Assembly (NCBI GenBank): GCA_036936605.1
Contig: JAUPFV010000001.1
Span: forward strand, 75,597,910-75,661,909
Reading direction: 5' to 3'
Origin: Limnanthes douglasii subsp. nivea
Lineage: Eukaryota; Streptophyta; Magnoliopsida; Brassicales; Limnanthaceae
DNA: 64,000 nucleotides
A program made the position numbers and the translations under genes. The number at the start of each line of letters is the position of its first letter. Position 1 is the first letter of the stretch. The notes beneath the pieces were generated by a model. That model was not told the origin of the DNA and did not search any database. It saw only the letters and a program-made list of their open reading frames with translations. Of this stretch, positions 1 to 45,849 are shown one piece after another.

Positions 1-3000
1 CTCTAAATAATACTTATAATGACTTTTAAAATGTTAAATTGGAATGTTAGAGGAGTAGGTAACATTAAAACACTTAGAAGAATAAAGAATCTAACTAAAA
101 AGCATTTTATTAATATTTTAGCTTTGCAAGAACCTATGGTAGCAGTATAAAAGTTTAGAAATTTGTTCTAAGTTAGGTTTTGAGTCTGTTCAGGCAAATA
201 TAAATAACAAAATATGGATTTTATGGAGAAATGGTTTTAAAATTGATTTCATTGATAATTTTGAACAGCTTCTAAGTGCTAGGGTTAGTCATTCTGCACA
301 TATGGAGGTTGTTTTGCTTACTGTTGTGTATGCTAAGTGTAACATTAGTCTTAGATTATCTTTGTGGAATCAGCTTAGGAATATATCCATTGTTAAGTTG
401 CCTTGGTTTGTTGTAGGAGACTTTAACTCTATATCTAATACTAGTGAACAAAGAGCATGTAATAATCTGCATACTAAAAGTTTGGATGATTTTAATGAAA
501 TGATATTTGATTGTAAGTTAGAAGACCCTGGTTATGTAGGTTCTAATTTTACTTGGACTAATAAACATAAATGGAAAATGTTAGATAGATGCCTATATAA
601 TGAAATTTGGAGGAATACTTTTAATGTCACAAGGGTGGATCATCTGGCCAGAACTTGTTCTCATCATTCACCCTTGTTAATAACTATTTTAAAACAAATT
701 AGTTTTCAAAAAACATCTTTCAGATTTCAAAATATGTGGTTAAAACATGATGATTTTATCAAAATTGTTGAAAGTAACTGGTCTATACCTTTAAATGATT
801 ATTATGATATGTATATATTTTGGTCTAAACTTAAGAGATTAAAAAAGCATTTGCAAATTTGGAATAAGAATGTATTTGGTAACATTTTTGTTAACTTAAA
901 CAAAGTTGAGAATGAAATAAAACTTGCTGAAATTGTGCTTGAGGAAAACAATTGTATTGAAAACCAAATGAAAGTACAAGAATTGAATACTACTTTGATA
1001 AATTTGCTTGAAAAAGAAGAAATTTACTGGTATCAGAAAAGTTATGTAAATTGGACAACTGAAGGTGATAATAACTCCTCTACTTTTCATAACTATGTTA
1101 AGAAAAGAAAAGTTAAGAGCAGAATTAATGGAATTTTAGAAAATAATAATTGGATAGAAGATGAGGAATTGATTGGTCTCTCTGCTGTTGGTTATTTTAC
1201 AAATTTGTTGAACAAAACTTCCCTTATGCATGATCTGTCTATTGTTAGAAACCTGCAATTTTAACTGAACAAAGTAATGAAAGTATCTTGAAAGAACCTA
1301 CTCTAGAAGAATTATATGATATTATTAGATCCCTTAATAAAAACAGTGCCTTTGGAGTTGATGGTTTCAACTCCAGATTCTATTTTGCTTGTTGGTCTAT
1401 AATTAAAGTTGATTTGCTTAATGCTGTTAAAGGATATTTCTTGAGTTCAGATATACCTAAAGGTGTTTATTCTACTTTAATTTGTCTTATACCTAAGGTC
1501 AGGTCTCCCAAATATTGGACTCAATTTAGACCTATTAGCTTGTGTTCTGTGTTTAATGTGATAATTTCAAAACTGATTCAAAGAAGATTAGCTAAGCTTC
1601 TCCCCTTAATATTTTATGATGAACAAGGTGCTTATATTGACAATAGAATGATTTAGGAAAATATTTTAATAGCTCAGGAGATAGTAAAGGATTTGAATAG
1701 GAAAACTAGAGGAGATAATCTTATCTTAAGCCTTGACATGTCAAAAGCCTTTGATAGACTTGAGTATAGGTTTATATATGAAGTTATGTCTGCATTTGGT
1801 TTAAATGATCTAGTTATAGACTTAATTAGAAAATCTATAGAACATATTTCATATTCTGTTATTACTAATGGGAAGACTTCTGGCTACTTTAAGTCTAAGA
1901 ATGGTCTTAGGCAGGGTGATCCTCTATCACCTTGTCTATTTATAATTGCTGAGGAGTTTATTATTAGGGGTATAAAGATGTTGGTTGGTCAGCAAAAGAT
2001 TAGGGCCTATAATATGAGAAGTAGCTTAAATATTAGTGTTTTAGCTTATGCTGATGATATAATATTATTTATAAATGGTTCATTAGCTAGTGTTAGAAAT
2101 TTATCTAGTTTCTTAGATCTATATCAAAATCTATTTGGACAGCAACTGAACAAAGACAAATCTACTTTCTTAGCTTCTTCAAAAATGAGTAGAAACAGAT
2201 TAGGACACCTTAAGGACTTCTTAGGTTTTAAGCTTTCAAAATTACCTTTTACATATCTAGGTATCCCGATTCATTCAAATAACGTTGCTGAACATTTTGA
2301 GTGTTTAATAGACAAGGTTAAGGATAAGATTCATGAATGGAATTCTAAACATATTTCTTTTGGTGGAAAGATAACTTTAATTAACTCTGTACTCATGTCC
2401 TATCCTATATATTAGTTGCAGTCAACAAAATTGCCTTTAAAAGTTATTACTAGATTTAATAAATTGTTAAATAAATTTTTGTGGGGTTGTAATGAGAATA
2501 GCAGAAGTCTTATTTGGACTAGTTGGGCTAGTTTATGTAAGCCATTTAAGGAGAATGGTCTTAATTTTAGAAGCTTAGAGGATATTCAATCTGCATTTGC
2601 TTTTAAATTATGGTTCTCTTTTAGAAGTAATAAATCTTTATGGTCAAAGTTATTACACTCTAAGTACTGTAATAATATACATCCACTGCAAGCTAGATTA
2701 AGGAACACTGATTCAAAAGTTTGGAAAAGAATGATGGAAATTGGATTAGAGGCTAAGAAGCATATTAGGTGGAGGATAGGTCAGGGTAATATAGATTTTT
2801 GGTTAGATCAATGGAGTGATATGAAACCTTTAATTTTATTAACTGATGTTAATTCTAGGTATTATCAGCAAACAAAAGTGAATGAATATATAGTTAATAA
2901 TACTTGGAATATCCTTAAACTTCAAAGTAGCTTGCCTTTACAGTATGTTAACAAGATTATTAAAACACATATAAACCAGAATGTTATGGACTCTGTTATT

Positions 3001-4458
3001 TGGAAATTGTCAAATGATGGTTCTTTTAAGTTAAAAGATACAGTCTTAGAGTTAAGACAGAAACATCCTTCATCAATAATCAAAGATAAAATTTGGAACA
3101 ATCTTTCACCTAAAAAATGTTCTTTTTGTCTTTGGAGGGTTTTAAATAATCTAATTAGTATAGATACAATCCTGCAATCTAAAGGTTTTCAACTTGCTAG
3201 TAAATGTGTGCATTGTGATAACATTGAGTCTTTACATCATGTATTTGTTTCCTGTGATACTGCTTGGCTTGTGTGGAATTTCTTTGCTGATAAATTTAAT
3301 ATTAAGATAGGTAGACACATGACTATTAATCATATTGTGAATATATGGTTTCTGTCAACTGTTAGAAGAGTTCATGTTAGGACTGTATTGCCATCTATGA
3401 TTATCTGGAACATTTGGAAGGCTAGAAATAAGTATAAACATAGTAATATTTCGACATCTCATAAACAGATTGTGAGTCAGGTTCTTTTAATGCTTACATC
3501 ACTGGATTTAGCATCTGTATTAACTAGAAAGCATTGGTCATTTGATTTAAATATAGCTAAACAGTTAGGTTGCCATAATCATGTTAAACTATCTAAGCCT
3601 TTCATGTATATTAAGTGGGAAAAGCCTGTAAATAATCATGTTAAGCTAAACTGTGATGGTTCTACACTCATCAATGGTGAATCTAGTTGTGGTTATATAA
3701 TAAGAGATAATTTAGGAAAGTTAATAATGGCCAAAGGGAATGTGTTAGGAAAGTGTTCTTCTATTTGTGCTGAAATAGCTGGGTTATTAAATGGTTTAAC
3801 ATACTGTAAGGAGACTAATCTTAAAGTTGTAGACATTGAAATAGATTGTTTAGCCTTATTTAACATGTTAGCGTCTGGTTTTAGTCCCTGGTATTTAGAG
3901 CATAGTCTATTGTGTTGTAGACAGCTGATTTCATCACAAATGACTATTAGGCATGTTTTTAGGGAGCAAAACTTGGCTGCAGATTGGTTGGCTAAGTACG
4001 CTTTGGAAATTAAGAATAGTTTCTCTATTCAGTCTCTGCAAAATTTTAGTGATTTAGCTAACATTTTAAGATCTGATGCTATGGGTTTGGGAAACTTTAG
4101 ATATGCTTAATATTTTGAATATGTGATTTCTGACATTGTTAGCAAGTTGAAAGATTTGACTATATGGTTTTGCTTGCAGGTTCAGGTTTAGGTATACAAA
4201 TGTGAAGGTTTGAGGACTGTGGAAGGATTGCTATGGATGCAGAAGTAGGAAGATAGGAGCTGTTGGGAGCAGATTGATTAAGAAGGATGGAAGAAGGAAG
4301 GAGGCTGCTGATGGAGAAACAAAAGAATAGCTTCTTAGTCATAATTTATGTAATCATGGAGCTTTTAGCTCACAGATTGTTTGTAATTAACAGGCTGTAA
4401 GATTTTTTCAACATCAATAAAAGTAACTTCTTGGGAAATTTTTTTTTTTTTTTTTAAA
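1..4458 (+). mobile_element. L1-type LINE (LINE-1), 5' end outside window, decayed
   Basis: A non-LTR retrotransposon in plus orientation. The window begins just before the second ORF, so ORF1 and the 5' UTR are not seen. ORF2 domains appear in order: endonuclease, reverse transcriptase, zinc-binding region and C-terminal RNase H, as in plant L1-clade elements. After the last stop a 3' UTR of about 330 bp runs to a polyadenylation-like AATAAAAG near 4417-4424 and ends in a T-rich run at 4441-4457 rather than a clear poly(A) tail. That end is unusual and may be altered. The element is more AT-rich and more decayed than LINE-2. Its end lies about 430 bp upstream of the decarboxylase-family gene. 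Confidence 0.9.
19..4110 (+). pseudogene. LINE-1 ORF2 (endonuclease - reverse transcriptase - RNase H), broken
   Basis: This is the ORF2 polyprotein that would nick target DNA and copy the element RNA. The start near 19-33 gives the usual LINE opening with an asparagine-rich WNVRG motif. The endonuclease GDFN motif is near 415-425. The reverse transcriptase has the SKAFDR block near 1740-1758, a LRQGDPLSPCLF block near 1909-1945 and the catalytic YADD box at 2047-2058. A zinc-binding C..C..H...C region is near 3205-3255 and an RNase H (RVT_3) domain with a CDGS motif is near 3651-3662. Breaks: frame changes near 148 and near 1250, and in-frame stops at 1654 (TAG in place of a Gln codon) and 2413 (TAG in place of the usual Trp). 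It cannot make a full protein. The TTG-initiated reading from 2416 is only the continuation of the same frame. Confidence 0.9.
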
Positions 4459-17141: not shown

Positions 17142-17310
17142 GTAAATATTATCAAACAAACAAGAGAAAATAAGCATATCAGTTTCGTATAATAAAGATA
17201 GACCCAGTTTCTTATAGTAAAGATAGATTACCAGTACCGCATACAGAGTTTCTTAGGAAATATTACTGAAATTAGATTGCCACGCATAGAGAGCTATGGC
17301 TTTGCCTTAA
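17142..17310. other. Short spacer between the P1 element and pseudogene A
   Basis: AT-rich DNA corresponding to the 3' flank of F-box/PP2 gene A. No feature is recognised. Confidence 0.5.
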
Positions 17311-18570
17311 TTAGTTATAAACCACTTTAGGCCTGATCTCGATACCTAGAATGATGAGGCCACCCTTTCCATTATAGTTTTTGGTGTCCATCACACTCAT
17401 TTCTAGCTCCTCCTCTATGTCTATGTCTCCCTTGTTGTAAAACTCTCCAAGCTCTACCTCGAGCCACCCAGCTCCTCTCTCTTTAAAGTCCATATTCTTT
17501 TCTCTACGAGGATAAGAGACCATAGGCCGATGTCTATTCTTATCGTAGCGATCTAGAAAACCCATTATCTTATTGCTTTTACCTCCCACAGGTCCAAACG
17601 AAACCTCTATTGCTTGATTTTCAAAACCATAAGTGTGCAAAGTTGTTTTGTACACAAAGTAAGCTCCATAAAGAGTTTTTTTTCTGACAGCATTTGAGTA
17701 TTAATGGTGCCGTGAATTTCGAGCCAAAACACTTCAAAAGTTCAACAACTCTTGAAAACCTATTCATATATATATATATATATATCAAACACTTGAAGAG
17801 ATAATTAAAAATGACGATTTATAACTTGTTAGAATTGATGTGAGCGCGTGTGACCGACCTCACGGACTAGCGAGATATTGTCCGCTTTGCGCTCGTAGGC
17901 GCGCACGGGTTTGCTCTTGGGTGTACTCCCAAAAGGCCTCTTGCTAGTTGAGGTGGGTCCACACTTATATACACTCTTTTATGGTCCTTGTTAGCAATGT
18001 GGGATTGGGAGTCCTCTATGGGATGAAGTTTATTCTTCACATAACTGGAAGAAAAAAGAAACACATACCTACGGTCCGGAACAGAGATCCATCGCCAGTA
18101 TAAACAAGAGTCGATCCATACTATTATCAAGTCATTGGGAGCTATCATGTAACACTCTTTCCCACTCTTTTTTTCAAGTGAAAAACACTACTCATCCAAA
18201 AAAATTAAATCTTAAATAGTTGATAAAGAAACCAACTATAAGAAACATTATATAAACATTAACAAAACCAAACCACCGAAATATGTCGGCAAAGACGGTC
18301 ATAGAAATTATCATTACCTTCTTTCCATCTTCAATTAAGATGGGATGGTCAGACAAAGTGAGATAAAGTTGTTTCACCGATGTGTAGACATTAGAACTTG
18401 ATTCAACAGTACTTGGCAAAATGAGTGGTAGAAAACTCTTCCAAACTTCGTCGGAATCCGCGATCAGTTGGATATGTTTTGAGACTGAGGCCATAGTACA
18501 TGCCTCGGCGGGAGTGGTAGAGGAGATAATCTTGAGGAGACAGTTTCGAGGTTAGGTCTCAAAAATCCAT
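17311..18570 (-). pseudogene. F-box/PP2 (PP2-B-like) pseudogene A
   Basis: This is a three-exon relative of intact gene B at 45849-44674. Exon 1 (18570-18318) encodes the F-box region but has one extra T after the third codon, giving a stop at codon 4; a shorter reading from 18494 lacks the F-box start. Exon 2 encodes a well-kept PP2-type segment (KKSGKECYMIAPNDL then a WRWIS block) ending near 18069. Exon 3 starts near 17740 and has small indels against gene B before the frame re-opens at 17655 for the PP2 lectin-like domain ending in GIEIRPK. The repeat insertion of gene B is absent, so A shows the ancestral loop. The upstream TATA equivalent is mutated to TCTAAATA near 18623-18630. Confidence 0.85.
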
Positions 18571-20089
18571 CAGAGCGGTAATATATGTTGTGTGACCTAT
18601 TGATAGAGAAAAAAGTGTAAGAGGATATTTAGAGGATGCATAAGTGAGTCGCTTGAATTTGGTAGTATTACGTGTTATCAGTATTTGAGAAACTTTGCAG
18701 AGTGCAACACGTGATTTTCAAGGACAATAGTGAGTCGGCACCAAGTTTCATATTAAATTACTGACCTTCTTCTCATCAGCTCTAATATATTCTCACTTTA
18801 GAAAAATAGGATAAAAGATTTATATTGTTCTATTTAAAATACATAATATTATTAATCTTAATGACAACAGAATATAAAAACACAATCCATCTTAAAATCC
18901 CAATTTTACTTAAAAAATGTTGTTATATACAAATACAAATTTATTGAACCCACATTAACAAAATAGTAAAACAAATATGCATTTACAAAGTATTAAAAAA
19001 ATAGACGGATGTGGAAAATGTTGTTAAAAAAACTAAAATTTGTCTCAAAATAAGATAAAACATTATTTTAATGTTTTGTTTTGTTTTATTTTTTTAAAAA
19101 ATTAATTTTTGAAACAGAAGCACCACACGTTAGACGAAACGATATATGTATCGTTTAATCGGTGGTACATGCGGTGAATACTGTATGTTTGAACATTTTT
19201 AATCATCGATTTACAATTTTTTGTAGGACTGGTTCGCGCTCTTTGAATCACTAATTCAAATACCTTGTACTAACTCTTCATGTTTTTTTTACCACCGGTT
19301 CACAAGTAATGCATTTTTGTGATTGTCAGTCTATGTTTCGTTTACTTATTTTTTATTTTTATGTACTTTCAAATCGCATGATGAGAATGATATTGATGAG
19401 AATGATACTGATGAATATGCATGAGATTTCACAACAGATTGTAGTAATGTCTTTTTCAAAACAGATTATTATACGCGAAAATTATTGGTTGAGCGGTTAA
19501 GAAAATCACGCGACCAAACAAATTGGTTATCAACATAAAATGTCGTGATGCTTTGTATAGTATAAAAATCCTAAAATATGTTTTGAATTCGAAAATTTAA
19601 GAAAATGTCGACCGAATAAAAAATTTGTGGTTGCTTTTTCGAGCTTAAAGGGAGTATGCTAATTCCAGACCAATGATTATTAAACGTTACCTACGGGATT
19701 CACAATCATCCAAATGTTAAACACATAGACAGTCATTAGTGGGACATTTGACTAAAGAAGAGTTAGATTTGTAGAATGTTCTACCTATCATACCCTTGAA
19801 AAATGTTGAACGAAGTAAAGAAGTTGAACAAAGGAAATTTTTCATCCACACAGACTGTTTACAATGCTTAGACAAAAAAATTGGATGTTTGAGAAAGTCA
19901 GTTGGTCATAGTTGCAATAATTGTTAGGAAAACTCAAACGGTATCATTATTTTGAATGAGGTGGTTCTTCTGTCACCGGAACAAGAGAGGTATGCAGTTC
20001 AGTTACTAAAGGATATGCTGCTTGAGTCGTAACATGGACAATTTTCGAACTAGTCTGTGTCATCTTCTTCTCACTACTATGTTTGTCCC
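18571..20089. other. 5' flank of pseudogene A, duplicated at 45900-46870
   Basis: No intact gene. From about 19310 to 19570 the sequence aligns by eye with 46620-46870 (shared TTATACGCG and AAATGTCGTGATGCT-like blocks), so the duplication that made A and B included more than 1 kb of upstream DNA. The reading frames here are broken and I do not recognise a protein. Confidence 0.55.
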
Positions 20090-30841: not shown

Positions 30842-31383
30842 GAAAACTTAAAGACTAACTATAAAACCTATATTACACAAGTGCAACATAACCATTCATA
30901 GATTATCAAAATGAGTTCCGCAAACATAACATACGAGTTTTTCGACTGATGTAAATACTACTAAAATGAGATTGGCATACATAGAAAACTGTATCCTTGG
31001 CTTATTTAGTTATTAACTGTTTTAGGCCTGATTTCGATACCTTGACTGATTATGCCACCCGTTCCATCAACGTTTTTGGTCACCGTTATAATTACTTCTA
31101 GTTCCTCATCTAAGTCTCCTTCATTGTAGAAGTCTCCTACCTCTATCTCGAGCCACCCATCTCCTCTTTCTTTTAAGTCCGGAATTGTTTCTCTTGGAGG
31201 ATAAAAGATAGCAAGTCGATGAAATATTCCACGCCTTGAAATATCAGGTCGCGGTCCACACCTAGAAGTATCATGTCGCGGTCCATGCCTTGGAATATCA
31301 CGTCGAGTCATACGCCTTGAAACATCACGTCGAGTTCCATTCGTATCGTAGCGATATAGAAAAATCGTTCTCTTATTGCTTTT
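30842..31383 (-). pseudogene. F-box/PP2 gene fragment C (part of last exon plus 3' flank)
   Basis: About 540 bp match 44510-45050 of gene B with only a handful of base differences seen by eye. The copy covers the C-terminal half of the PP2 domain, including the four 27-bp repeats (31231-31338), and the 3' flank. It stops abruptly inside exon 3, where a 17-bp unit AAGTACTAATAAGCTTT is duplicated (31384-31400, 31401-31417). F-box and the first two exons are absent, so it is a displaced fragment and not a gene. Confidence 0.88.
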
Positions 31384-33609
31384 AAGTACTAATAAGCTTT
31401 AAGTACTAATAAGCTTTAGATGTTGGTTAAAATATACATAGGAAATGTTTAGATGTTGTTTGCTAGCAACATCATTATAATTGATTTAGCAAACGTAATT
31501 ATAAGTTGTCTATCAACGTTAATATGTTGTATTATCATTGTAAAAATAATGTAAATATGATGTATCTCGCAATGGCAGCTGTCTAAGTATTTCGTATGCT
31601 CGTTTGATTCAGGTTGAAAAATTGAAGAAAGACTTGAACGAACTGAAACAGAAGCTGGAGGTGGAAGATGAAAGAGTGGATGGTGAGGATGATGATCTGC
31701 TGAACACCTTATCAATGCCATTTTACCGTATTGATGAGGACGATGTTGAAACTGTGGATGCAAACATTACTGAGAATGTGGTTAAGGAAACACTGGTTTA
31801 CAAATCTCGGAGGCATGGATTTGTTCCCAAGAGGAACCAACAAGTTTCTGATACCGAAAAAGCAATAGAAGAAGAGGATGTTTAGGGGTAGTCAACAGCA
31901 GAAGAACATAAGGATCTTGAGACAACTGAGGAAAAAGAAAGTGAAGTATCAGAGGAGGAGAAGTTAGAAGTTGATGGAGGGCAATCCGAAACACCTGTTG
32001 AACCAATGCAAGAAAGTACTACACCGGAAGCTATTGTTGTTGATGTCACTGGGAAGCAGAAAAGGACTACAATAATTGGTTGTGACGCTGGTAATGAGAA
32101 AGGGGAGGTGGCAGAAAAATTATCACCCCTAACTCATGCTGCCGGTGCGCAAAATGAAGTTTTCGTAGCTGAACAGGGACACGGAGTTGGAAACAAAAAG
32201 GTTGAACGACAGGAGCTGATGGTGGACAGAATTGATTTGTTGGACAAAGGTTCCAACGAAGGAACGAAAACACTGAAATAATAGTTGGAGGACTCTGAAA
32301 AAACCGTAGAGGAAGGACAAAATGCGGAGACAGGTCAAGACAAAGAAGAAGCTGACACAGTAGCAACTACTGTGTTGGAGAACGCAGCCACAGAACTACA
32401 GGGGCCAGAACCTGTCTCTGAGAATGTGGTGGAGAATGTGGCTGAAGATATAAGTGGATCTTAAAATCGTTAAGATTCATATTTTTTTAGTAATTATGTT
32501 TTGGCTGGTTTTGAAATGTTCAAACTCTAGATTGGATAACATTTAAGATTGGTTGTTTTTTGTATCAAAAAGTTGGTTTGACAGTATCTGTGTAGTGTAA
32601 GACATGATTTCAATGATTGTCTCAATGAGTATTAGTTGATGCATGTTTGACAAATCGCAAACACAATATGTATATAGTCTGATAGATACAAAATATGTAG
32701 AATACCGTTTTCATTGCAAACAAGCCGCAATGTATAATAGGCGTAAATAGCATCGTTCTATTGGAAACCCATCTAGCAATGATAGTTGTGCTTATATCGC
32801 AATGTATGTTGATAATATTGTCATGTTATGTTATTAGGAAATGGAAACAGCGGCGCCTGAAGACACACGACATTCTAATGTAAAGATCTTGGCATACACT
32901 GGGATTGAAAAAGCAGTAAAGTGCGAACAACTATCGCAAGCTGTCTCTCCATTAAAGGTGATTCCAATTATCAACGGAGAAGAGCGATCCGCAGAGAAGA
33001 TTGAAAAAGTGTCACAGGTCGAGCAATCTCTGTACGCAACACCACAACAACATAAAGCAACATCTAACGATCTGATTGTCCGATCGGTTACACCGTTGGC
33101 TGACGATAGCTTTGTAGACTACACTCAATCATTTTATGCAGAAGTTGACAAGGCTGTTGAAAATTCAAACGAGAAGAGACGTACACTGGACTCCATCGAG
33201 GAAAAATAAACAGACGTTGGCGTAAGTAGATATATTGTATTATCAATAAACCTTTAAAAAGTAATGTTAACAGTTTACTCTGATGCTTTATATTAGGTGC
33301 CCGTTGATGAAATGCCTAAATGGAACTTACTTACTCCAACGCAGGTTAAACAACAACAGACTGTGGTCGTAGATTGGTCGTTCCCGACAGAGACAACAAA
33401 ACTGATCAATGTCAGTGAGTACGAGAAAGTGATGAAACTTGCCAAGGAAGAAAAACAAGAAGATCCAGAAGTATGGTACTTGCCAATAACGGAGTTCTCC
33501 TATAGGCTTTCCATTAGTGTGACCGAGATAATGAAACTGCCTAACGAAACTCAAGTTGACTTCAAGGTAATAAGGTTTCAGGTTGTATCTATCATAGTAA
33601 ATTTGTAAG

Positions 33610-33666
33610 TCTAGCAATGTGTCTATGTACGTCTAGCAATATTAATATGCAGCATCTAGCAATGTG
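33610..33666. repeat. Three motif copies in a Ulp1-gene intron
   Basis: TCTAGCAATGT, TCTAGCAATAT and TCTAGCAATGT follow one another at 33610, 33632 and 33655, within the intron after 33566. Confidence 0.8.
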
Positions 33667-34214
33667 TCTCATTGAAGTTATAGTCTTAGTTGTCAACCTA
33701 TAAACCGTTGGTTATTCTTTTGAGTAATTTTCATTCAACTGATTTGAGCTTGTAATTGTGTTTTGATAGATAATAGATGCTTGGATATATAAGCTGTTAA
33801 AGGATTCAGATTGGAAAGTCCCTCTGAAAGGGTTTGATGATGAGTATTCATATATGATCAGCGCCATTCAAATAACTAGAATTGCAACTGTAAGTTCCCC
33901 GGGAATTATGTGTCTTATATTGGAAACATCTACTTCCTATAGTAATGACGCAAATTTGTAGGGAACACTGGCTATCAAGGGAGATTTGTCTGTCATTGTG
34001 GACAAGGTTTTTGAACAATGAAACCAGACACATATGTTGCACTTGTTCCTCTTTGTACCGTTAACACGTCTGGCGTGAACCACTGGACGCTCCTGGTTAT
34101 AGACATGGAGAATGGGGCTACCAGTAGCTACAACCCACTGTTGCCGTGGAGCAAACACATTGTCGATAAGACGAAAAACACAGCTGATGCTCTAGTATCA
34201 AATTTAATGCTAAG

Positions 34215-34309
34215 GATCTTGGTTGCCTATCTAGCAATGTCGTATACTATATCTATCAATGCATATAGAAGTACATAGCAATGTAACTATGGATTACTTG
34301 ATTATGCAG
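34215..34309. repeat. Three motif copies in the intron between the two peptidase exons
   Basis: TATCTAGCAATGTC, TATCTATCAATGC and ACATAGCAATGTA lie in the roughly 95-bp intron that splits the catalytic His exon from the catalytic Cys exon. Confidence 0.75.
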
Positions 34310-34559
34310 CTGGCCTATTGCATGAAGAAAAAATACATACCTTATGTAAAAGGTGGATACAAAATAAAGACAATGAGAAATATCCCACAACATGAGAATG
34401 ATAGCCTTGACTGCGGTGTTTTTGTTTGTAAGTACGCAAAAGACATCATTACGAGAGGGTATGTTCAGCGAGAATATGGAAAGGAAATGTCGGCCGAAAC
34501 AAGAGCTGAAATATTTAAGCATTTCATGAATGATCAAAACACAAACAAACATTGGTAGT

Positions 34560-35480
34560 ATGTAATTCATTTTTTTGGTACCCACTTCTATGATTCGGAT
34601 AGATTAGGATGGGTGAATTATACAATTAATATGAACTTATTAGAAAACTCTCGTATCAACAACAATTTTCACATCACTGTTACATCCTTCAATGGTGAAT
34701 CTAGTAATTTCTATATGTTGTATCTATTAGAGTAATTTTCAAGTAAATCGCAATGTCTTTATTATTACCTATCAGACGTGAATTAAAATATCTATCAATG
34801 TTATATAATGTATCTATCAGACCACTTTTTAACGGATCTAGCAACTACATAGTGCGACATCTAGCGTAGTCTATATAGTCTTATCTATCAGACTATTATT
34901 GACGGATCTACTAATATACGTTTGTCCTATCTATCATACTTAGACTAACTTATCTAGCAATGTCTATTTTTTCGAATCTATCAGAATCCTAAACAAGTGG
35001 TGTATGTAGCAATATACAAAATTCGTATCTATCAGACTTAAACTCAAGTAAATATAAAGGGAAATGTTTTTCTAAACTACCTTGGAAGATCCTGCCTTTG
35101 TTGCATGAATAAATTTCACATCACTAATCAATTCCTCAATGATGTATCAATTCTTCCTATCTAGCAGACATTTACTCAATTATCTATCATACTTATATCC
35201 AAATACATATCAATGTCTATCCGTCTTATCTATCGGAGTTATAATCAAGTGTCTATGATAGTCTGAATTACATATCTATCAGACTAATTATCTAGTATCT
35301 AAGAATGTCCACATGTCAAAACAGCTTTGTTACGAACCATATAGTCCACTTTTGGATTATGTGTCTATCAAAGTCGATACCATTTAGCAACATCAGTATT
35401 ACGTATCTAGCACGGAAAGGTTTTATATTTTAAATATTATATATCTAGCATTGTCGATTAGGCGTAAATCGCATATAACA
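34560..35480. repeat. Motif-dense non-coding spacer 1 of the MULE
   Basis: About 25 copies by eye of a degenerate motif with cores TCTATCAGAC, TCTATCAATG, TCTAGCAATG and TCGCAATG, mostly in plus orientation and irregularly spaced every 20-60 bp. There is no ORF. The copies are too diverged and too irregular to be a satellite. The density drops sharply at the acidic gene. Confidence 0.8.
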
Positions 35481-35744
35481 TATTAGTGATGGACCAACTA
35501 TATATTTGGATTGGAGGATATGTTTATTGGTAGATGAGTAAATTTAATTTTTCGAAATGACTGTTAACTACACCTATCACTCATTAGAAGTAAATGTATT
35601 AAACCTATTGGTTAGATTGAAAGTTGAAAAGACAAAGGTAGATGGACTTGAATGATTACATGCATTAAATAGATGTGTGCCATTAAATTTGTGAAAGTAA
35701 TTATGGTTGCTAGATGGGACTTAGCCTTGAGCATTGTGTTTTGC

Positions 35745-35752
35745 TATAAATA
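35745..35752 (+). promoter_or_regulatory. TATA box of the acidic-protein ORF
   Basis: TATAAATA lies 116 bp upstream of the ATG at 35861, followed by CATCTCACACTT as a plausible start region and an A/C-rich leader. This is a typical plant core promoter. Confidence 0.7.
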
Positions 35753-35860
35753 GAGGTTGATAGTTGAACGTATTCATCTCACACTTCTCTGCAAAGCAAA
35801 AAACCAACCAGCAAACCACCAGCCACTCTAGCCTAAGTTGAAACCAAACCACCATCGGTA

Positions 35861-36253
35861 ATGGCACCTTCCTCACCATTCTCACCAATGAACTCCAACA
35901 ACGACGGATGGTTTACTGACTACTACGTAGACAACAAGGCTTACAAGAGAACTGCAACGTCTGAGTACTCGTCCGATAAGGAATACGACTGGTCCATTTG
36001 GTCTGAGGAACACGAAGACCCCTACGCTTCATGGGACTCATGGTCGCTTGACGACGGTTATGACTCTGACAGTCTCACACTTCCAAAAACGAAGAGACGT
36101 CATGACAGTTGGGAGTCGGAGAAAGGAGAGGATGATGATTCTGGGGAAGCAGGCGATGATAAGTCTGAGGACGAAGAAGACGAAGAAGTGGATGAAGAAG
36201 AAGAAGAAGAGGAGGAGGGATCTGAAGGAACAGATGAAGATGATTCTGATTAG
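35861..36253 (+). CDS. Small acidic protein encoded within the MULE
   Basis: Intact 130-residue ORF with its own TATA box, a good start context (GGTAATGGC) and no motif copies inside it. The N-terminal half is Ser/Asp/Tyr/Trp-rich (repeated W-S and Y-D pairs: WFTDYY, YDWSIW, YASWDSWSLDDGY). A short basic patch KTKRRH follows, and the C-terminus is almost continuous Glu/Asp (36165-36245). No known domain is recognised. It is the only fully open gene of the element, whose protease and transposase genes are broken. In VANDAL elements a third gene (VANB) of unclear function occupies a comparable place, but there is no visible homology to support equating them. It could instead be a captured host gene. 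Acidic tails of this kind suit histone or basic-protein binding, which is inference. Confidence 0.7.
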   Translation: MAPSSPFSPMNSNNDGWFTDYYVDNKAYKRTATSEYSSDKEYDWSIWSEEHEDPYASWDSWSLDDGYDSDSLTLPKTKRRHDSWESEKGEDDDSGEAGDDKSEDEEDEEVDEEEEEEEEGSEGTDEDDSD

Positions 36254-36559
36254 GTTTAAACATGTTCATGCAGTTTCCTTTTATTATCTTTCTATGTTAT
36301 TGTTTCTAATGTTTTGTTTATGCTTTGTTGAACTGTAACTTTTACGAGCCCTGTGCAGCAGTTTCATTTTTTGACAGGGTTGGTGTATTTGGAAGATGTG
36401 TAGCATTGACTGATTTTCTAGTAATGTTAAGGTTTTATTGCATTTTGTGTTCGCTATCTTAGAATTTTGTGTTAAGTTTTGAATGTAACAAGTTAACATT
36501 GATATGAAGCAGTTGACTGAAGCAGTTTTAATGGCAGTTATAATCCACAATCGCATGGT

Positions 36560-37230
36560 ATGTAAACTAATCTATCAGATGTAAGTTAACCTTAAAAGCG
36601 CAGATGAAAATAGCTGTATCCATCAATGTTGGATATGGATGATTGGAACATCAACTATGAAATACCTACTCTTTTATATATACTTAATCTATCAAATGTA
36701 AGGTAACTTTATCTATCAACCACTACAAAACGAATCTATCAATATAGATGTCATATTTATGTCATCAATCTATCTGGCTATATTATCCGTGAATCCCAAC
36801 ACCTATTAAATAACGAGATGAATCAGGCATGGGAGATTTAAAGGACCTCTTGAACAAATGCAAGTAAGATATCAGATGGATGTAGACTAAAATAGAATAC
36901 ATAAATTGATGTATCTATCAGATGTATAATCCAGGATCTATCAATGTTACATAGCGTGTCTATCAGAGTATTACTGGCGAATCTAGAAATCTCTATCAGA
37001 TTTATACTAAAGTATATATTAATGCATATGTCTCGTATCTATCAGAGTTTGAAGCATACATCTAGCAAGGTATTGGAAGTAGTTAACGACTATCTAGCGT
37101 TATAATCGCAGCGTATCTAGCAATGTAGAAATTAATATCGAGAAGAATAATCTTTTCAAACAGACATGGTACATATCAATGTTAAAAGTATCAAAAAATA
37201 TAAGTCGAAAGATAAGGAGTGCTTATCTAT
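36560..37230. repeat. Motif-dense non-coding spacer 2 of the MULE
   Basis: About 16 copies of the same motif (for example TCTATCAGATG at 36571, TCTATCAATG at 36936, TCTAGCAATG at 37116) lie between the acidic gene and the 3' end of the transposase gene. Confidence 0.8.
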
Positions 37231-37268
37231 GAGATGCAAAATGTTACTAAAAAATCGGTAAAAAAAGT

Positions 37269-39843
37269 TTAGAACGGAGCATCACATGACCTCCTATTAA
37301 GCCCCGATTTGAAACATCGACCACAACGGGACTGGCTGCTAGTAACCTCACCTCTTGACGGAATACGATTTTTCCTCGGCCGCCCATGTCGTCTTTTAAC
37401 GTTTGGGGGCATCACCACTGGCTGTCCATCATAATTTGCAGTACTAGATTCACCGAAATCTGTTATAGCCGGTATGTTAAAAGAATAGATGGACCGGTAA
37501 TTTGCAGCACTGAAAAATGGTCTACTAATGTCATCGGATCTTCGTTTAGAGATGCAATTGTAGCCAATGCATGATCGCATGGGAAAACTTCTTGCTGCCA
37601 AGAGCCGCATGTGCATTTGAAATCAAGTATGTTGACCACCATGATTGGGTCTGATAAAACCTCAAAATAAGCGGCAGAAGACTTGCAAACTAACCACGTC
37701 CGACTGCATTGTACATTCTCTTTGAACATCTTGTCAAACTCGGGGAATAAATGTGTGTTCCAACTTAGGCCCTCTCCTAAACGTCGAGACATTTGAGTCA
37801 TCAGAAGAGCTCTAATCCGGTCGACCAATTCTATTATAGGCAGATGGCACAACTTTTTAATCTGGGAATTGAACGATTCAACAGCGGTTGATGCCATCGC
37901 CCCATACCGTTTGCCTTTGACATATGCCTGAGCCCATTTTTCTGGTGGAAAATTTCTTACAAAGTTGCCAATACGCTCACCCCCTTGGCGCACAAACTGA
38001 CCAAAACGTTTATTAAAAAGTTCCACCGTCGGGGCATAAGCACAGCTCTTAAACATCACTAGCATATTGTTTTTTGTAGACTCTGTTAGTGTGTTCAAGA
38101 GCTTTATTCAAGTTCTGGATCAGATGGAAGATACAATAAGTGTGGTAGTCATTAGGATAAAGAGTTGCGACATCGCTAATAATACCAGCATGACGGTCTG
38201 AAATGAAAGTTATTTGGCGCCCTAACAAATGAGGTTTTAAACTTTCTAAAAAACAAAACAAGTTTTCTGAGTCTTCACTACCAAATATACCAAAAGCTAT
38301 GGGGAAGAGACCTGAAACCGAAACAATACAAGTGAAAAACAGTACTACATTGACAGGGGTGAATGGACTCAAATCGCAATGTATATATAACATATCTATC
38401 AGACTCAGGAAGTCTGTGTAATAATCAACGTAGCACACTAAAACAGGCTTAAATCATAGTGTAAACATAACTAAGCTAGCAATCTATCATAACTAAAATA
38501 GCAGGGCATGTAACCTAATCTATCAATCAATGCAAGTAAATCGCAACGACTATATGTCAAACCTAGCTAAAATCGCAACGATACACAAAAACAGATGCAC
38601 ATTCAATAATATACCAATCTAGCAATAACAATCATAGCATATGATAGACATTGGTTGGGTGAGTGAACTGAACTCGCAATGTATATAGAACCTGTCTATT
38701 AGAATAAGGCAATGACATCAAAACAACCAATCTAGCAAACTAGGTCTACCTATCTAGCGTGCATGTTCAAATAGCAATGTAAAACTAACCAATCTAGCAA
38801 CATAAGCTCACGATAAACATTTGAAAAACAAAATCACTAATGCAGACCAAAAGTATAGTGAAACATGGACTGACCGTTGTTTCCATCTTTTGCCACTGCT
38901 GAAAGCAACACGCCACCGTGCTTCCCTGTTAGGTGGGTTCCGTCAACGTACATAGAGGGCGGCACGAATGGAAACCGAAAGAGGTATTGCTATCTCCAAA
39001 TACAACACGTCGGGCCTTCTCTAACGCATTCCAAGATAGATGATATGAAATGTCTAAACCGTAGTCTTGCTAGATAGAGGACTGTACAGTCTTAGCTGTT
39101 ACAGATTGGCAGTTCCTAAGAGAATCATGAATTTCATCAGCAATCAAATCGGACGACAGATGCCTGCTTTTCTTCGTTGTGAATACGGGACTGCACGTAT
39201 GGGTACTGACAAATCTTTTTATTGTCATCAAACCGGTCTTAGAATCAACAGAAGCATAAAGCCTCCATTTGCAGCCGTCCGAATCTTTGTTTACACAATA
39301 AATGGTGATCTTGCTAAAGGTATTGTGCATGTACCTAAACGCAAAACTGTTCTCTAATGCATAAAGGGATAAGGATAACCTTAGACCTTGAGCACCATCT
39401 GGAAAATACTGTCCAACACCGATGATAGCTTTTGCCCATCCAGTTGTAGCTAGATGCCTTTTTTGGGGGGTTGAAATGGCCAAACAGCTACTGCTTTCAC
39501 CGCTAGTTCGTTGCATATGCGAGGATTCCTCGAACAGTTGAACAGGTTGTTTACGTTTAATGGCGGAGCCTTTATCAGAAATATGTTCTTCGATAAGAAA
39601 ACTAACACTCTTCAGACGCTCAACATCAAGGTAACATTCCAACCCAATAAAATCGGTCTCCTTATTAAACATACAATTATTCTGATTACCGCAAGAGTAG
39701 GTAATGATGTAGTTGCCTCTAACAAGCCCCTGCCATGTTTCCTCAACATACTGTTGAAAAGACTCGAAGTTTTCGAATTCGGACAGCGGAACAATAGCTC
39801 TTCGGTACCAAATTTGAAAATGCAAACTTTTGGTTTCGACATT
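37269..39843 (-). pseudogene. MuDR-type (Mutator-like) transposase gene, two exons visible, frameshifted
   Basis: From the ATG at 39843 the reading gives a MULE N-terminus, the MuDR DNA-binding region near 39420-39130 (GQYFPDGAQ to FVSTHTC), the first catalytic Asp in MYVDGTHLTG near 38955, then a 563-bp intron (38874-38312; exon joint G-N-N-G-L-F). Exon 2 has the second Asp in FISDRHAGI, the CIFHL block, the catalytic Glu in ESFN and a SWIM zinc finger (CTCGSW..FPCDHA). The C-terminal tail resembles the GRPRKNR plus zinc-knuckle end of other MULEs, but the knuckle His is replaced by Leu (GLNRRSC). Breaks: frame changes near 39800, 38958, 38080 and 37500, and a stop at 39072-39070. The protein cannot be made, so the copy is non-autonomous. 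Confidence 0.88.
38312..38874 (-). other. Intron of the transposase gene, rich in the element motif
   Basis: Minus-strand donor GTCAGT and acceptor TTTCAG join in phase. The intron holds about a dozen plus-oriented motif copies (TCTATCAGACT near 38395, TCTAGCAA near 38620, 38730 and 38795), while the adjacent exons have essentially none. Confidence 0.8.
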
Positions 39844-39946
39844 GTGTACCCTGAATTGTAGGAGTTTTGGTTAGTTTGTTGTAAGGCAGCGTACAACAGC
39901 TGAATGTGTTACAGAGTTAAGTACATGTCTAAATGGTAAATGTTTG

Positions 39947-40450
39947 AACACATCTAGCAATCTCCCATAACTAAAATCGCAGGGTATATGCAGTCATGGT
40001 ATATGGTTAAACACATCTAGCAACCTATCATAGCTAAAATCTCAGGGTATATGCAGTCATGGTATATGGTTGAACACATCTAGCAACCTATCATAGCTAA
40101 AATCTCAGGGTATATGCAGTCATGGTATACGGTTGAACGCATCTATCAACCTATCATAGCTAAAATCTCAGGGTATATACAGTCAGGGTATATGGTTGAA
40201 CACATCTAGCAACCTATCATACCTAAAATCTCATGGTATATGCAGTCAGGGTATATGATTGAACACATCTAGCAAGCTATATTAACTAAAATCTCAGGGT
40301 ATATGCAGTCAGAGTATATGATTGAACACATCTAACAAGCTATCATAACTAAAATCTCAGGGTATATGCAGTCAGGGTATATGATTGAACACATCTAGCA
40401 ACCTATCAAAACTAAAATCTTAGGGTATATGCAGTGAGGGTATATGTTTG
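39947..40450. repeat. 63-bp tandem repeat, eight units plus a partial ninth
   Basis: Eight consecutive 63-bp units, each starting AACACATCTAGCAACCTATC and containing GGTATATGCAGTCA, fill exactly 504 bp. A partial ninth unit follows. Each unit carries one copy of the element motif (TCTAGCAA). The array lies directly upstream of the transposase start codon, in its 5' leader or promoter region. Confidence 0.92.
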
Positions 40451-40559
40451 AAGACATGTAGCAACCTTTACCATACTATAACAACAAACAAATCACAGCC
40501 TTTAACATACAGCACATAACACAAATCGTAATCTATATAACAGAGGTGAAAAACTGAAA

Positions 40560-41100
40560 TTTCTTATAGGAATGTAATCGGTGCCGGTATCGTTGTTTTG
40601 AATCGACCAGAAACAGAAAATAACTGACTCCCGGTCATTAACATACATTAAATACGGCAGTGATTCTAATATCAAGATCGAAAATGGGAAAAAAATGCAG
40701 TTTAAGAAGAGTCACGATATCGTTCTATATCTTCCAGACGTCGGAGCTGCTATCAACGGGGACGTCGACGGACGTTAGTGGTGCACCGGTCGAGCGTCGA
40801 GATTGACTCGACGGAAAATGACGTATGAACCTCTGCAACCGATTACAGAGCACCTGTCGAGCTCGTACTGTTTACCTCCGATTACAGAGTTCGTCGAAAA
40901 ATCAGTTTGGCAGTGAACGGAAGTGAAGTCGACGGTGGTTATATCGAAGTTCGCCGGTGGTTAGGATGTAATCGCCGGAATGAGTGTAATCACGTCTCCG
41001 TTTTTTGAAACGAATAGACGTTCTTGAAAAATAAGTTGTTTGTTATGTTGAGAGAGAGGAGAGAGGGGCTAATAAGTTCAAAATTCAAAATTCAAAAAGT
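40560..41100 (-). promoter_or_regulatory. CpG-rich terminal/promoter region of the MULE
   Basis: Between 40690 and 41030 CG dinucleotides are frequent (GACGTCGGAG, GTCGACGGACG, GGTCGAGCGTCGAG, TCGCCGGTGG) in otherwise AT-rich DNA. GATTACAGAG occurs twice (40841, 40880). The position upstream of the transposase gene fits its promoter or the terminal region. No ORF is present. Confidence 0.45.
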
Positions 41101-41287
41101 AATAAGAAGATTCTGTACCCAAAATGGTCCATTTTTCACAAATTAAACCTTATATACTAGGTTGAGGGTAATCATTGTATTAATAAAAAATTAAGTATTA
41201 GAAATGGATATATTTAATGAGATGGATATTAAATATACTAAATAGTAATAGGTTTGGTTAAAAGGTACTTAGTTTCATTTCCTTTTC

Positions 41288-41676
41288 ATTTATTAAAAGA
41301 AATAGTCTATTTGTTTGAAACAAAAACATAAGTGGTAAAAGCGTTTGAATGAATTCTATTTACTTTCAAATTAATCCCCATTTCCCAATTGTGCCCAATT
41401 TCGATAATTTATTCTAATCTTTTTTTTAAACCTTATTAACTAACTTTTAAACTTTGTTTGTCCAACCAAATGCGTATTATATTGCCATCGTAATAAACTA
41501 TGTGAAGCTGAAATTTCATACTTAACCATCAGTGTATACCAAGATAAAACAAGTAGAGAAATATTAATATTGATCACTAGTTTACAGCACTAGTAAGGGA
41601 AATATAGACTATCAATATGGACCATCAGTTTACGGCACTAGTAAGAAAAATATAGGCTATCAGAGTCCAAAGTCCG
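41288..41676. repeat. Direct repeat X1 (about 390 bp)
   Basis: Matches 44096-44484 closely (shared GTGGTAAAAGCGTTTGAATG and GACCATCAGTTTACGGCACT), ending at CAGAGTCCAAAGTCC in both. In the right copy this sequence is the 3' flank of F-box/PP2 gene B. Confidence 0.85.
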
Positions 41677-44060: not shown

Positions 44061-44095
44061 GAATGCAACCTTAAATATGATCATAGTTTAATTTA

Positions 44096-44484
44096 ATTTA
44101 TTAAAGGAAACAGTTTATTTGTTTCAAACAAAAACATAAGTGGTAAAAGCGTTTGAATGAATTCTATTTACTTTCAAATTAATTCCCATTTCCCAATTGT
44201 GCCCAATTTCGATAATTTATTCTAATCTTTCTTTAAACCTTATTAACTAACTTTTAAACTTTGTTTGTCCAACCAAATAAGTATTATATTGCCATCTTAA
44301 TAAACTATATGAAGCTTCATACTTAACCATCAGTATATACCAAGATAAAACACGTAGAGAAATATTAATATTGACCACTAGTTTACAGCACTAGTAAGGG
44401 AAATATAGGCTATCAATATGGACCATCAGTTTACGGCACTAGTAAGAAAAATATAGGCTATCAGAGTCCAAAGTCCTCTGTTTT
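44096..44484. repeat. Direct repeat X2
   Basis: Second copy of X1. It lies between the P2 element and the 3' flank of F-box/PP2 gene B. Confidence 0.85.
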
Positions 44485-44673
44485 CGTGTGCATATAGGGA
44501 AAGTGAGTAGAAAACTTAAAGACTAACTATAAAACCTATATTACACAAGTGCAACATAACCATTCATAGATTATCAAAATGAGTTCCGCAAACATAACAT
44601 ACGAGTTTTTAGACTGATGTAAATACTACTAAAATGAGATTGGCATACATAGAAAACTGTATCCTTGCCTTAT

Positions 44674-45849
44674 TTAGTTATTAACTGTTTTAGGCCTGAT
44701 TTCGATGCCTTGACTGATTATGCCACCCGTTCCATCAACGTTTTTGGTCACCGTTATAATTACTTCTAGTTCCTCATCTAAGTCTCCTTCATTGTAGAAG
44801 TCTCCTACCTCTATCTCGAGCCACCCATCTCCTCTTTCTTGTAAGTCCGGAATTGTTTCTCTTGGAGGATAAAAGATAGCAAGCCGATGAAATATTCCAC
44901 GCCTTGAAATATCAGGTCGCGGTCCACACCTAGAAGTATCATGTCGCGGTCCATGCCTTGGAATATCACGTCGAGTCATACGCCTTGAAACATCACGTCG
45001 AGTTCCATTCGTATCGTAGCGATATAGAAAAATCGTTCTCTTATTGCTTTTTTCTCTTACTGGTCCAAAAGCGACCTCTAAGACTTGATTTTCAAAGCCA
45101 TAAGTGTTTGAAGTTGCTTTGAAGACGAAATAAGCTGCATAAAGAGTTTTTCCTGATAGCATTTGAGTATTAATGGTGCCGCGAATTTCGAGCGACCACA
45201 CTTCCAAAACTTCAGCAACCTCTTGAGATCTGTTTTCAAATAGATGCCTATATATATATATAGACCAAATACTTTAATTGATATCAAATACTTGAAGACA
45301 TCACTAAATAGAAGAAAAGAAAGAAACGTACATAAAGTTAGGGGAATAAATCCGTCTCAAACATAATTGAGAATCAATCCATATGATAACCAAGTCATTG
45401 GGAGCTAGCATGTAGCAATTCTTCCCACTCTTTTCCTCAAGTTCCTCAAGTTGAGACCTCTATTCAACCAAAAAGTTAAAAAAATTGGATTTCAAAAGGT
45501 TGATAAAAAAGACCAACTATAAAAAAACATAACTTCAACATTAACAAAACCACGCCACTAAAATATATAGGTATAGACGGTGATACAAATTGATTACCTT
45601 TTCTCCATCTTCGATCAAGATAGGATGGTGACACAAAGTGAAATAAAGTTCTTTTTTCGATGGGTAGCCGTTGGAACCTGACCGAATGGTATTGGACAAA
45701 AAGGGTGGCAGAAAGCTCTGCCAAACTTCATCGGAATCGGCGATCAGTTTGATAGGTTTTGATACCGAAGACAATATACATGCATCGGTGGGAGTGGTAG
45801 AGGAGATAATCTTGGTGAGACACTCTTGAGGTAAGGTCTTAAAATCCAT
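44674..45849 (-). CDS. F-box/PP2 (PP2-B-like) protein, gene B, three exons, intact
   Basis: Exons 45849-45598, 45459-45332 and 45229-44674 all have GT-AG borders and join in phase to 312 codons with stop. The N-terminus is an F-box (LPQECLTKIISSTTPTDACI ... SDEVWQSFLP) that would bind the SKP1 adaptor of an SCF ubiquitin ligase. The rest is a phloem protein 2 lectin-like domain (KSGKNCYMLAPNDL, WSLEIRGTINT, TLYAAYFVFK, GDGWLEIEVGDF, GIEIRPK) that would recognise glycan or protein targets. Family members are usually 280-300 residues. Here four tandem nonapeptides rich in Arg, His and Pro are inserted before the FHRLAIFYPPRE strand, encoded by 27-bp repeats at 44899-45006. Pseudogene A lacks them. 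Expression and function are unproven, but the open three-exon frame argues for a gene under recent constraint or a very recent origin. Confidence 0.85.
44899..45006 (-). repeat. Four 27-bp coding repeats in gene B
   Basis: Units at 45006-44980, 44979-44953, 44952-44926 and 44925-44899 encode GTRRDVSRR, MTRRDIPRH, GPRHDTSRC and GPRPDISRR. The same four units are present in fragment C (31231-31338). Confidence 0.9.

Follow-up and report, generated by a model that had tools for sequence, protein, structure and literature searches.

A VANC-like anti-silencing system with its own target motif is suggested by oriented motif arrays in a Mutator-like element family of Limnanthes douglasii

The stretch of Limnanthes douglasii subsp. 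nivea DNA analyzed here (64,000 nucleotides of contig JAUPFV010000001.1, referred to as the window) carries, at positions 31384..41283, a broken member of a family of Mutator-like elements (MULEs) that is left-truncated by alignment with its sister copies. The non-coding DNA of these elements is filled with copies of a short motif, ATCTAKCA, that nearly all point in one direction, often recur at regular steps and are all but missing from the exons. We propose, at a probability of roughly 0.6, that the arrays belong to a VANC-like, sequence-specific anti-silencing system with a motif of its own, and that they are bound by the protein of the element's own C48 peptidase gene.

The family was surveyed in a genome of 1.78 Gb (633 contigs) with a 1051-bp piece of the transposase gene, which yielded 2395 first-look candidates and at least 40 scored matches, the window copy itself among them and the others at 93-95% identity. 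Sister copies, some of them partial, were read as ten stretches of 20 kb, four of 15 kb and one piece of 6.5 kb. Ten copies make up the set used for most counts, namely subfamily A (e1-e5, e8, e10 and the window copy) and subfamily B (e6 and e9), which are 84-86% identical in the pairs printed from the alignment; the left ends of e3 and e9 are approximate in these counts. The e7 stretch holds two partial copies and was excluded from both the ten-copy totals and the subfamily alignment.

Background frequencies of the motif were taken from the rest of the window and from the flanks of the copies. Between 31384 and 41100 the shorter core TCTAKCA occurs 46 times on the plus strand and 5 times on the minus strand, against 9 and 10 times in the remaining 54.3 kb of the window. 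When 31384-41307 was shuffled 300 times with its dinucleotides preserved, the plus-strand count averaged 1.65 and never exceeded 6. The exact cores first named by eye, TCTAGCAATG (six copies), TCTATCAGAC (six, five plus and one minus), TCTATCAATG (three) and TCGCAATG (five) are found 0, 0, 0 and 1 times, respectively, in the rest of the window. Over the ten copies (125.8 kb) ATCTAKCA is present 422 times on the plus strand and 25 times on the minus strand, as compared with 1 and 3 occurrences in 74.5 kb of their flanks. Partitioned by predicted coding capacity, the same copies have 0 plus and 1 minus sites in 57.9 kb of coding DNA versus 422 and 24 in 67.9 kb of non-coding DNA. Trained on the two B copies alone, a 15-bp weight matrix found, at scores of 10 or more, 51 plus sites (none exonic) and 5 minus sites (one exonic) in the window copy and 1 and 6 in the rest of the window. 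At a score of 8 the plus and minus counts were 58 and 7 versus 7 and 20, and at a score of 6 they were 72 and 10 versus 34 and 51; since background matches climb at this last value, the matrix is specific only at high scores.

These counts agree with the original prediction, made by eye from the letters of the window, that more than 50 copies of a degenerate motif occupy the introns of both genes, both intergenic spacers and a tandem array and are nearly absent from exons. It had named two outcomes that would speak against it, a motif equally common in exons or unrelated DNA and sister elements that encode a Ulp1 protein but lack the motif. The first is not borne out by the flanks, the rest of the window and the exons, nor the second by the 15 sister stretches read, all of which have the motif. 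Outside the ten-copy set, the plus and minus counts were 29 and 1 for the whole e7 stretch, 37/3, 37/2, 37/0 and 37/1 for the whole stretches of e11-e14 with their flanks, and 26/3 for the shorter core TCTAKCA in L037. What had gone unnoticed were the single orientation, the steps of 22-24 bp and a third open frame at 35861-36253. The motifs are oriented with the element and not with its two genes, which run in opposite directions. No plus-strand motif was found in the 400 bp before this third gene, where there is one minus-strand site, or in the 300 bp after it.

The 39 sites of the window copy that lie outside its tandem array yield the consensus C..ATCTA(G/T)CA(A/G).(G/C)T, with spacers that carry little information; beyond the seed, information is found mostly at positions -4, -1, +7, +9 and +10 and, weakly, at -16. 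Among 45 adjacent distances in the window copy 14 measure 22-24 bp, and others are near multiples of this step. None of 500 jittered sets reached the observed periodicity (59 pairs, array again left aside). Spacers of 14 neighboring pairs, the sites having been chosen by their core, are 28% identical as compared with 32% for 660 distant pairs; neighboring spacers being no more alike than distant ones, the repeat units are old, with only the motif still recognizable. Helical phasing at 10.5 bp was considered but not supported, since 298 of 500 null sets matched it. Helical periodicity, along with domain gain and loss, is reportedly treated by Sasaki (2022).

The gene content was predicted correctly, with a C48/Ulp1 gene on the plus strand and a MuDR transposase gene on the minus strand, both of which are disrupted in the window copy by in-frame stops and frame shifts. 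In fuller copies the C48 gene encodes an N-terminal domain divided among several exons, basic and acidic stretches, and the C48 domain. Peptidase_C48 (PF02902) is matched at E 3e-9 by a joined set of exons from e3 and the window copy, and at 1.1e-4 by the last C48-gene exon of the window copy alone; the best solved relative is SENP5 (E 6.6e-4). The likely catalytic residues are named from the spacing of the Ulp1 triad. The transposase is of the MuDR type by its matches to PF10551 (MULE), PF03108 (DBD_Tnp_Mut) and PF04434 (SWIM), and its nearest relatives are 24-39% identical. The third gene is an acidic frame of 130 amino acids with a TATA-like box ~110 bp upstream; its sister form has no match in Pfam.

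Comparison of the subfamilies indicates that the C48-gene protein has been kept under selection, since fixed differences between A and B are concentrated at third codon positions, with 5, 2 and 15 at the first, second and third positions of three N-terminal exons and 4, 2 and 19 in the C48 exons. The pattern is weaker (14, 19 and 30) in the basic exon, the acidic exon and the two that follow, a feature also of VANC in its variable regions. In the N-terminal and C48 exons, changes confined to one copy fall about evenly on the three codon positions; in the acidic exon they do so less (32, 15 and 19). Copies therefore mostly decay once they have inserted. Fixed differences are absent from 373 columns of the acidic third gene and number only 11 in 1594 columns of the transposase; these values suggest that A and B have exchanged this half of the element. 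Of 2038 singleton changes in subfamily A, 804 are C>T or G>A, an enrichment consistent with past cytosine methylation.

The arrays have turned over between the subfamilies. An array of 63-bp units (5.5-11.5 of them) lies near the transposase start in seven of the eight A copies, the tandem-repeat search having found none in e4. Both B copies lack it and have instead, in another spacer, about five units of a 45-bp repeat with two motifs per unit. The plus-strand TCTAKCA totals are alike all the same, at 46-54 in A and 51 in each B copy. Such turnover opposes a simple reading in terms of purifying selection and fits the tandem-repeat account of Hosaka and colleagues.

One copy, e13 (assembled from L034 and L033), is a natural chimera. 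From the 3' part of the acidic gene rightwards it is A-type, at ~90% identity in long pieces and lower near the right end, and its left half comes from another lineage, with a VANC-like N-terminal exon that is 38% identical to that of A at the protein level (E 1.3e-15). The right half has the A motif. The left half has a longer one, GGTTTCGCATCTATCA, with frequent steps of 26 bp and its multiples; its 20 sites, all plus, read GGTTT(C)(G)CATCTATCAT. Upstream GTTT accompanies 17 of these 20 sites and is absent from all 19 right-half sites; each of four A and B copies has it at 1 or 2 of its 46-51 sites. T is found in the core at 18 of 20 left-half sites versus 6 of 19 on the right. At the junction the acidic gene comes immediately after a match to a C48-gene exon; since no C48 match was found in e13, it is not itself a working system. 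It is a single chimera, and the copies read included no intact members of the left-half lineage. Frames that we named by eye as Copia-like reverse transcriptase and RNase H lie beside e13, at 1336-3250 of the joined stretch.

The closest precedents are the VANDAL elements of Arabidopsis. In VANDAL21 and VANDAL6 the short target motif of VANC is confined to non-coding DNA, where it is dense in introns and in intergenic and terminal parts, has one orientation, has grown by tandem repetition and differs rapidly between related families, and the transposase is more conserved than the second gene (PMC5735166). VANDAL terminal inverted repeats (TIRs) are degenerate (PMC10398659). The family described here is likewise a MULE with a transposase and a second, variable gene. 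Its oriented motif is dense in non-coding DNA, absent from exons and rare in the flanks and the rest of the window, and has grown through tandem repeats that differ among families (63 bp in A, 45 bp in B, 26 bp in the left half of e13). The seven copies for which both ends were found begin with GAGGAAAGTACC or a near form and finish with CATTTCCC, so that TIRs are degenerate or absent here too. Unlike those elements, it has a conserved acidic third gene, a core common to two diverged gene lineages within a single genome, no match to DUF1985, and a motif that is unrelated in sequence to the Arabidopsis motifs YAGTATTAY and AGTTGTCC/AGTTGTAC.

A second set of relatives is formed by MULEs that bear a Ulp1 gene. 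In KI-MULE/Kaonashi (KIU), a group of non-TIR MULEs in Arabidopsis, and in Ulp1-bearing MULEs of grapevine, melon and rice, the Ulp1/C48 gene lies in reverse to mudrA (PMC2528002), as it does in the present family; motif arrays are not described in the passages on the latter three plants. The capture of Ulp1 is dated to the monocot-eudicot split, and Ulp1-bearing (KIU) VANDALs are reported each to recognize their own type of motif and to lose methylation (PMC13317346, which also cites an EMBO J paper of 2022 about how Mu-like transposons of eudicots counter silencing). A C48 domain in an anti-silencing system is for this reason not new, nor in principle is the idea of anti-silencing beyond VANC21 and VANC6 (PMC13317346). 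A possible difference between the present family and KIU elements is that in the former Asn occupies the place of the expected catalytic Asp in all 14 copies that cover the site (15 were searched, e13 without a match).

By analogy with VANC, the arrays would be binding sites for a protein composed of an N-terminal domain weakly like the Plant Mobile Domain (PMD), a basic and acidic variable middle and a C-terminus of the C48/Ulp1 fold. Any intact copy could supply this protein, which would bind the sites, phased and pointing one way, within introns and spacers and might remove or block DNA methylation across the whole element, whereby transcription of the transposase would be permitted. Because the features of the target match those of VANC systems and the N-terminal family does not, we treat the system as one that works like VANC and not as a member of the VANC family. 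To that extent the earlier suggestion of a related anti-silencing system with its own motif holds for the target features; membership in the VANC family is unsupported, as no DUF1985 match was found.

A more specific version can be offered only tentatively, and we hold it to be doubtful as a whole. The core ATCTATCA might be read by a conserved part of the C48-type protein in at least two diverged lineages, and the choice of responding copies might be made by a family-specific 5' extension, GGTTTCGC, and by the spacing (~22.5 versus 26 bp), both moving together with the gene. A C48 protease fold with its Asp changed to Asn would, in such a modular code, have become part of a DNA-bound anti-silencing factor in which a PMD-like N-terminus replaces DUF1985.

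Several results weigh against a VANC-like system, and they concern the protein, the motif and its history. DUF1985 (PF09331) was not matched by the N-terminal exons in Pfam at a limit of E 10, although the HMMER filters drop most matches above 0.1; there may be a relation too distant for Pfam. The match of the N-terminal region to PMD (PF10536), at E 3e-3 and at 1.8e-3 and 6.5e-4 on two-copy joined strings, amounts to 17-19 bits, short of the curated threshold of 34.9. Pfam gave no PMD match for the diverged N-terminal exon of e13, and no relative of the C48-gene product was found in the protein database. The core ATCTATCA is common to two lineages whose proteins are 38% identical, whereas the VANC21 and VANC6 motifs differ more, and the best-fit periods of 11.25-11.5 and 23-24 bp are not a multiple of 10.5 bp. 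Individual sites, moreover, are not guarded. Among 60 site columns held by the majority of A copies, 28 are kept in both B copies and 6 in one, 17 are lost though aligned and 9 fall in gaps; the 28 kept in both of the 51 that can be aligned are near the 24 expected from 10.3% divergence. Fixed A-B differences affect 31 of 327 motif columns and 527 of 5140 other non-coding columns, and the fixed-to-singleton ratio reaches 0.66 for motif columns, as compared with 0.52 for the others and 0.43 for columns under 300 permuted patterns. Within A, though, the motif columns are less changed than others (4.0% versus 7.3% for shared changes, 14.4% versus 19.7% for singletons). Site-by-site conservation was rejected as a proof of selection, there being no excess over other non-coding DNA. 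With a per-site loss near neutral decay, motif number seems to be maintained by new arrays and not by the guarding of old sites.

The sites might instead bind the element's transposase or a helping host factor, in the manner of Spm TnpA, and serve in transposition, a possibility that we consider improbable. Two transposon proteins, Spm TnpA and MURA of maize, have been tied to demethylation of their own elements (PMC10398659), and a motif oriented with the element would suit such a role. MURA, however, acts on TIRs (PMC10398659), and the ends at which transposase sites would be expected are motif-free in the two copies mapped (no plus-strand TCTAKCA in the first ~640 bp of e1 or the last ~840 bp of the window copy), while introns and spacers are filled; subterminal transposase sites were rejected on this ground. 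A and B, furthermore, have different arrays around a near-identical transposase, and in e13 the motif switches with the VANC-like half while the transposase half stays A-type.

That the arrays are functionless remnants of minisatellite-like slippage, missing from exons since coding sequence tolerates no repeats, is in our estimation slightly less probable again. The 63-bp and 45-bp arrays did arise by tandem duplication, and single sites are conserved no better than the background. Against this, one core in one orientation recurs in the window copy in eight introns and spacers that lie apart from each other, and in three more in the left part of e1, the core and its spacing have outlasted spacers that are now randomized, and the subfamilies arrive at similar totals with different arrays. 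A signal acting in RNA, e.g. in splicing or processing, is very improbable in spite of the many intronic sites, because introns of the C48 gene (plus) and the transposase gene (minus) share one DNA orientation and would give opposite RNA sequences, and because the two intergenic spacers, with 15.5 motifs per kb, are about as dense as the dense introns (11.5-21.7 per kb).

The VANC-like system proposed above would extend the VANC idea to another setting, one that offers at least 40 scored copies, two subfamilies that differ in arrays and keep the total, and a natural chimera. Because gene and motif differ together in the chimera, the way in which VANC-like proteins read their targets becomes testable, and two proteins with a common core can be compared for the extension of their motifs and for spacing. 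A short oriented motif and a single protein might also make a tool against transgene silencing, as has been proposed for VANC (PMC5735166).

The features of the window copy are collected in Table 1.

Table 1. Features of the MULE copy in the window (exon boundaries predicted by eye)
Feature	Position	Strand	Basis or remark
MULE copy, left-truncated	31384..41283		sister alignment; left edge is end of 542-bp host duplication
C48 (VANC-like) gene, acidic middle exon	31613..32463	+	in-frame stops here; frame open in sister e3
C48 gene exon	32838..33224	+	predicted boundaries
C48 gene exon	33297..33567	+	predicted boundaries
C48-gene intron, 4 plus motifs at 22-23 bp steps, 1 minus	33568..33768	+	motif map
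C48 gene exon, protease domain start	33769..33888	+	predicted boundaries
C48 gene exon, likely catalytic His; Asn at expected catalytic Asp	33962..34217	+	spacing of the Ulp1 triad
Short C48-gene intron, 2 plus motifs 22 bp apart	34218..34309	+	motif map
C48 gene last exon, likely catalytic Cys (DCGVFVCKY)	34310..34558	+	Pfam PF02902; SENP5 match
Spacer, 14 plus motifs, 0 minus	34559..35460	+	motif map
Third gene, 130-aa acidic frame, open in window copy	35861..36253	+	TATAAATA at 35745-35752
Spacer, 11 plus motifs, 0 minus	36561..37268	+	motif map
MuDR-type transposase 3' exon (MULE catalytic domain, SWIM)	37269..38349	-	Pfam
Transposase-gene intron (gene on minus), 6 plus motifs, 1 minus	38350..38869	+	motif map
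MuDR-type transposase 5' exon (DBD_Tnp_Mut)	38870..39845	-	Pfam
63-bp tandem array, 8.5 copies, 7 plus motifs	39935..40467	+	tandem-repeat search, motif map
Element right end	41276..41283		sisters terminate ...CATTTCCC

The limits first drawn for the element, 31384 and 41100, had to be revised. On the right the element runs on to ~41283, and host sequence resembling 44092-44476 restarts at 41284, directly past this end. On the left 31384 is a truncation edge, for which reason the first exons of the C48 gene are absent from the window copy; full copies begin ~3 kb further left and measure 12.4-13.6 kb in the seven cases with both ends. A clear 9-bp target duplication was not found in three of these seven (e1, e8 and e12); it is exact in two (e5 and e10), and at the same offset e2 and e6 match at 8 of 9 and 7 of 9 positions, respectively.

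The left edge of the element lies exactly at the end of a 542-bp direct repeat (30842-31383 and 44510-45051, 99% identical). A reading of these flanking repeats as long terminal repeats was rejected since they contain coding sequence of the host Phloem protein 2 (PP2; PF14299). Coding sequence of PP2 is also found at 17258-18595, and there are older copies at 76-80% identity, so that the repeats apparently belong to a tandem cluster of host genes. A 17-bp tandem repeat, TTTAAGTACTAATAAGC, extends across the truncation point of the element at 31381-31418.

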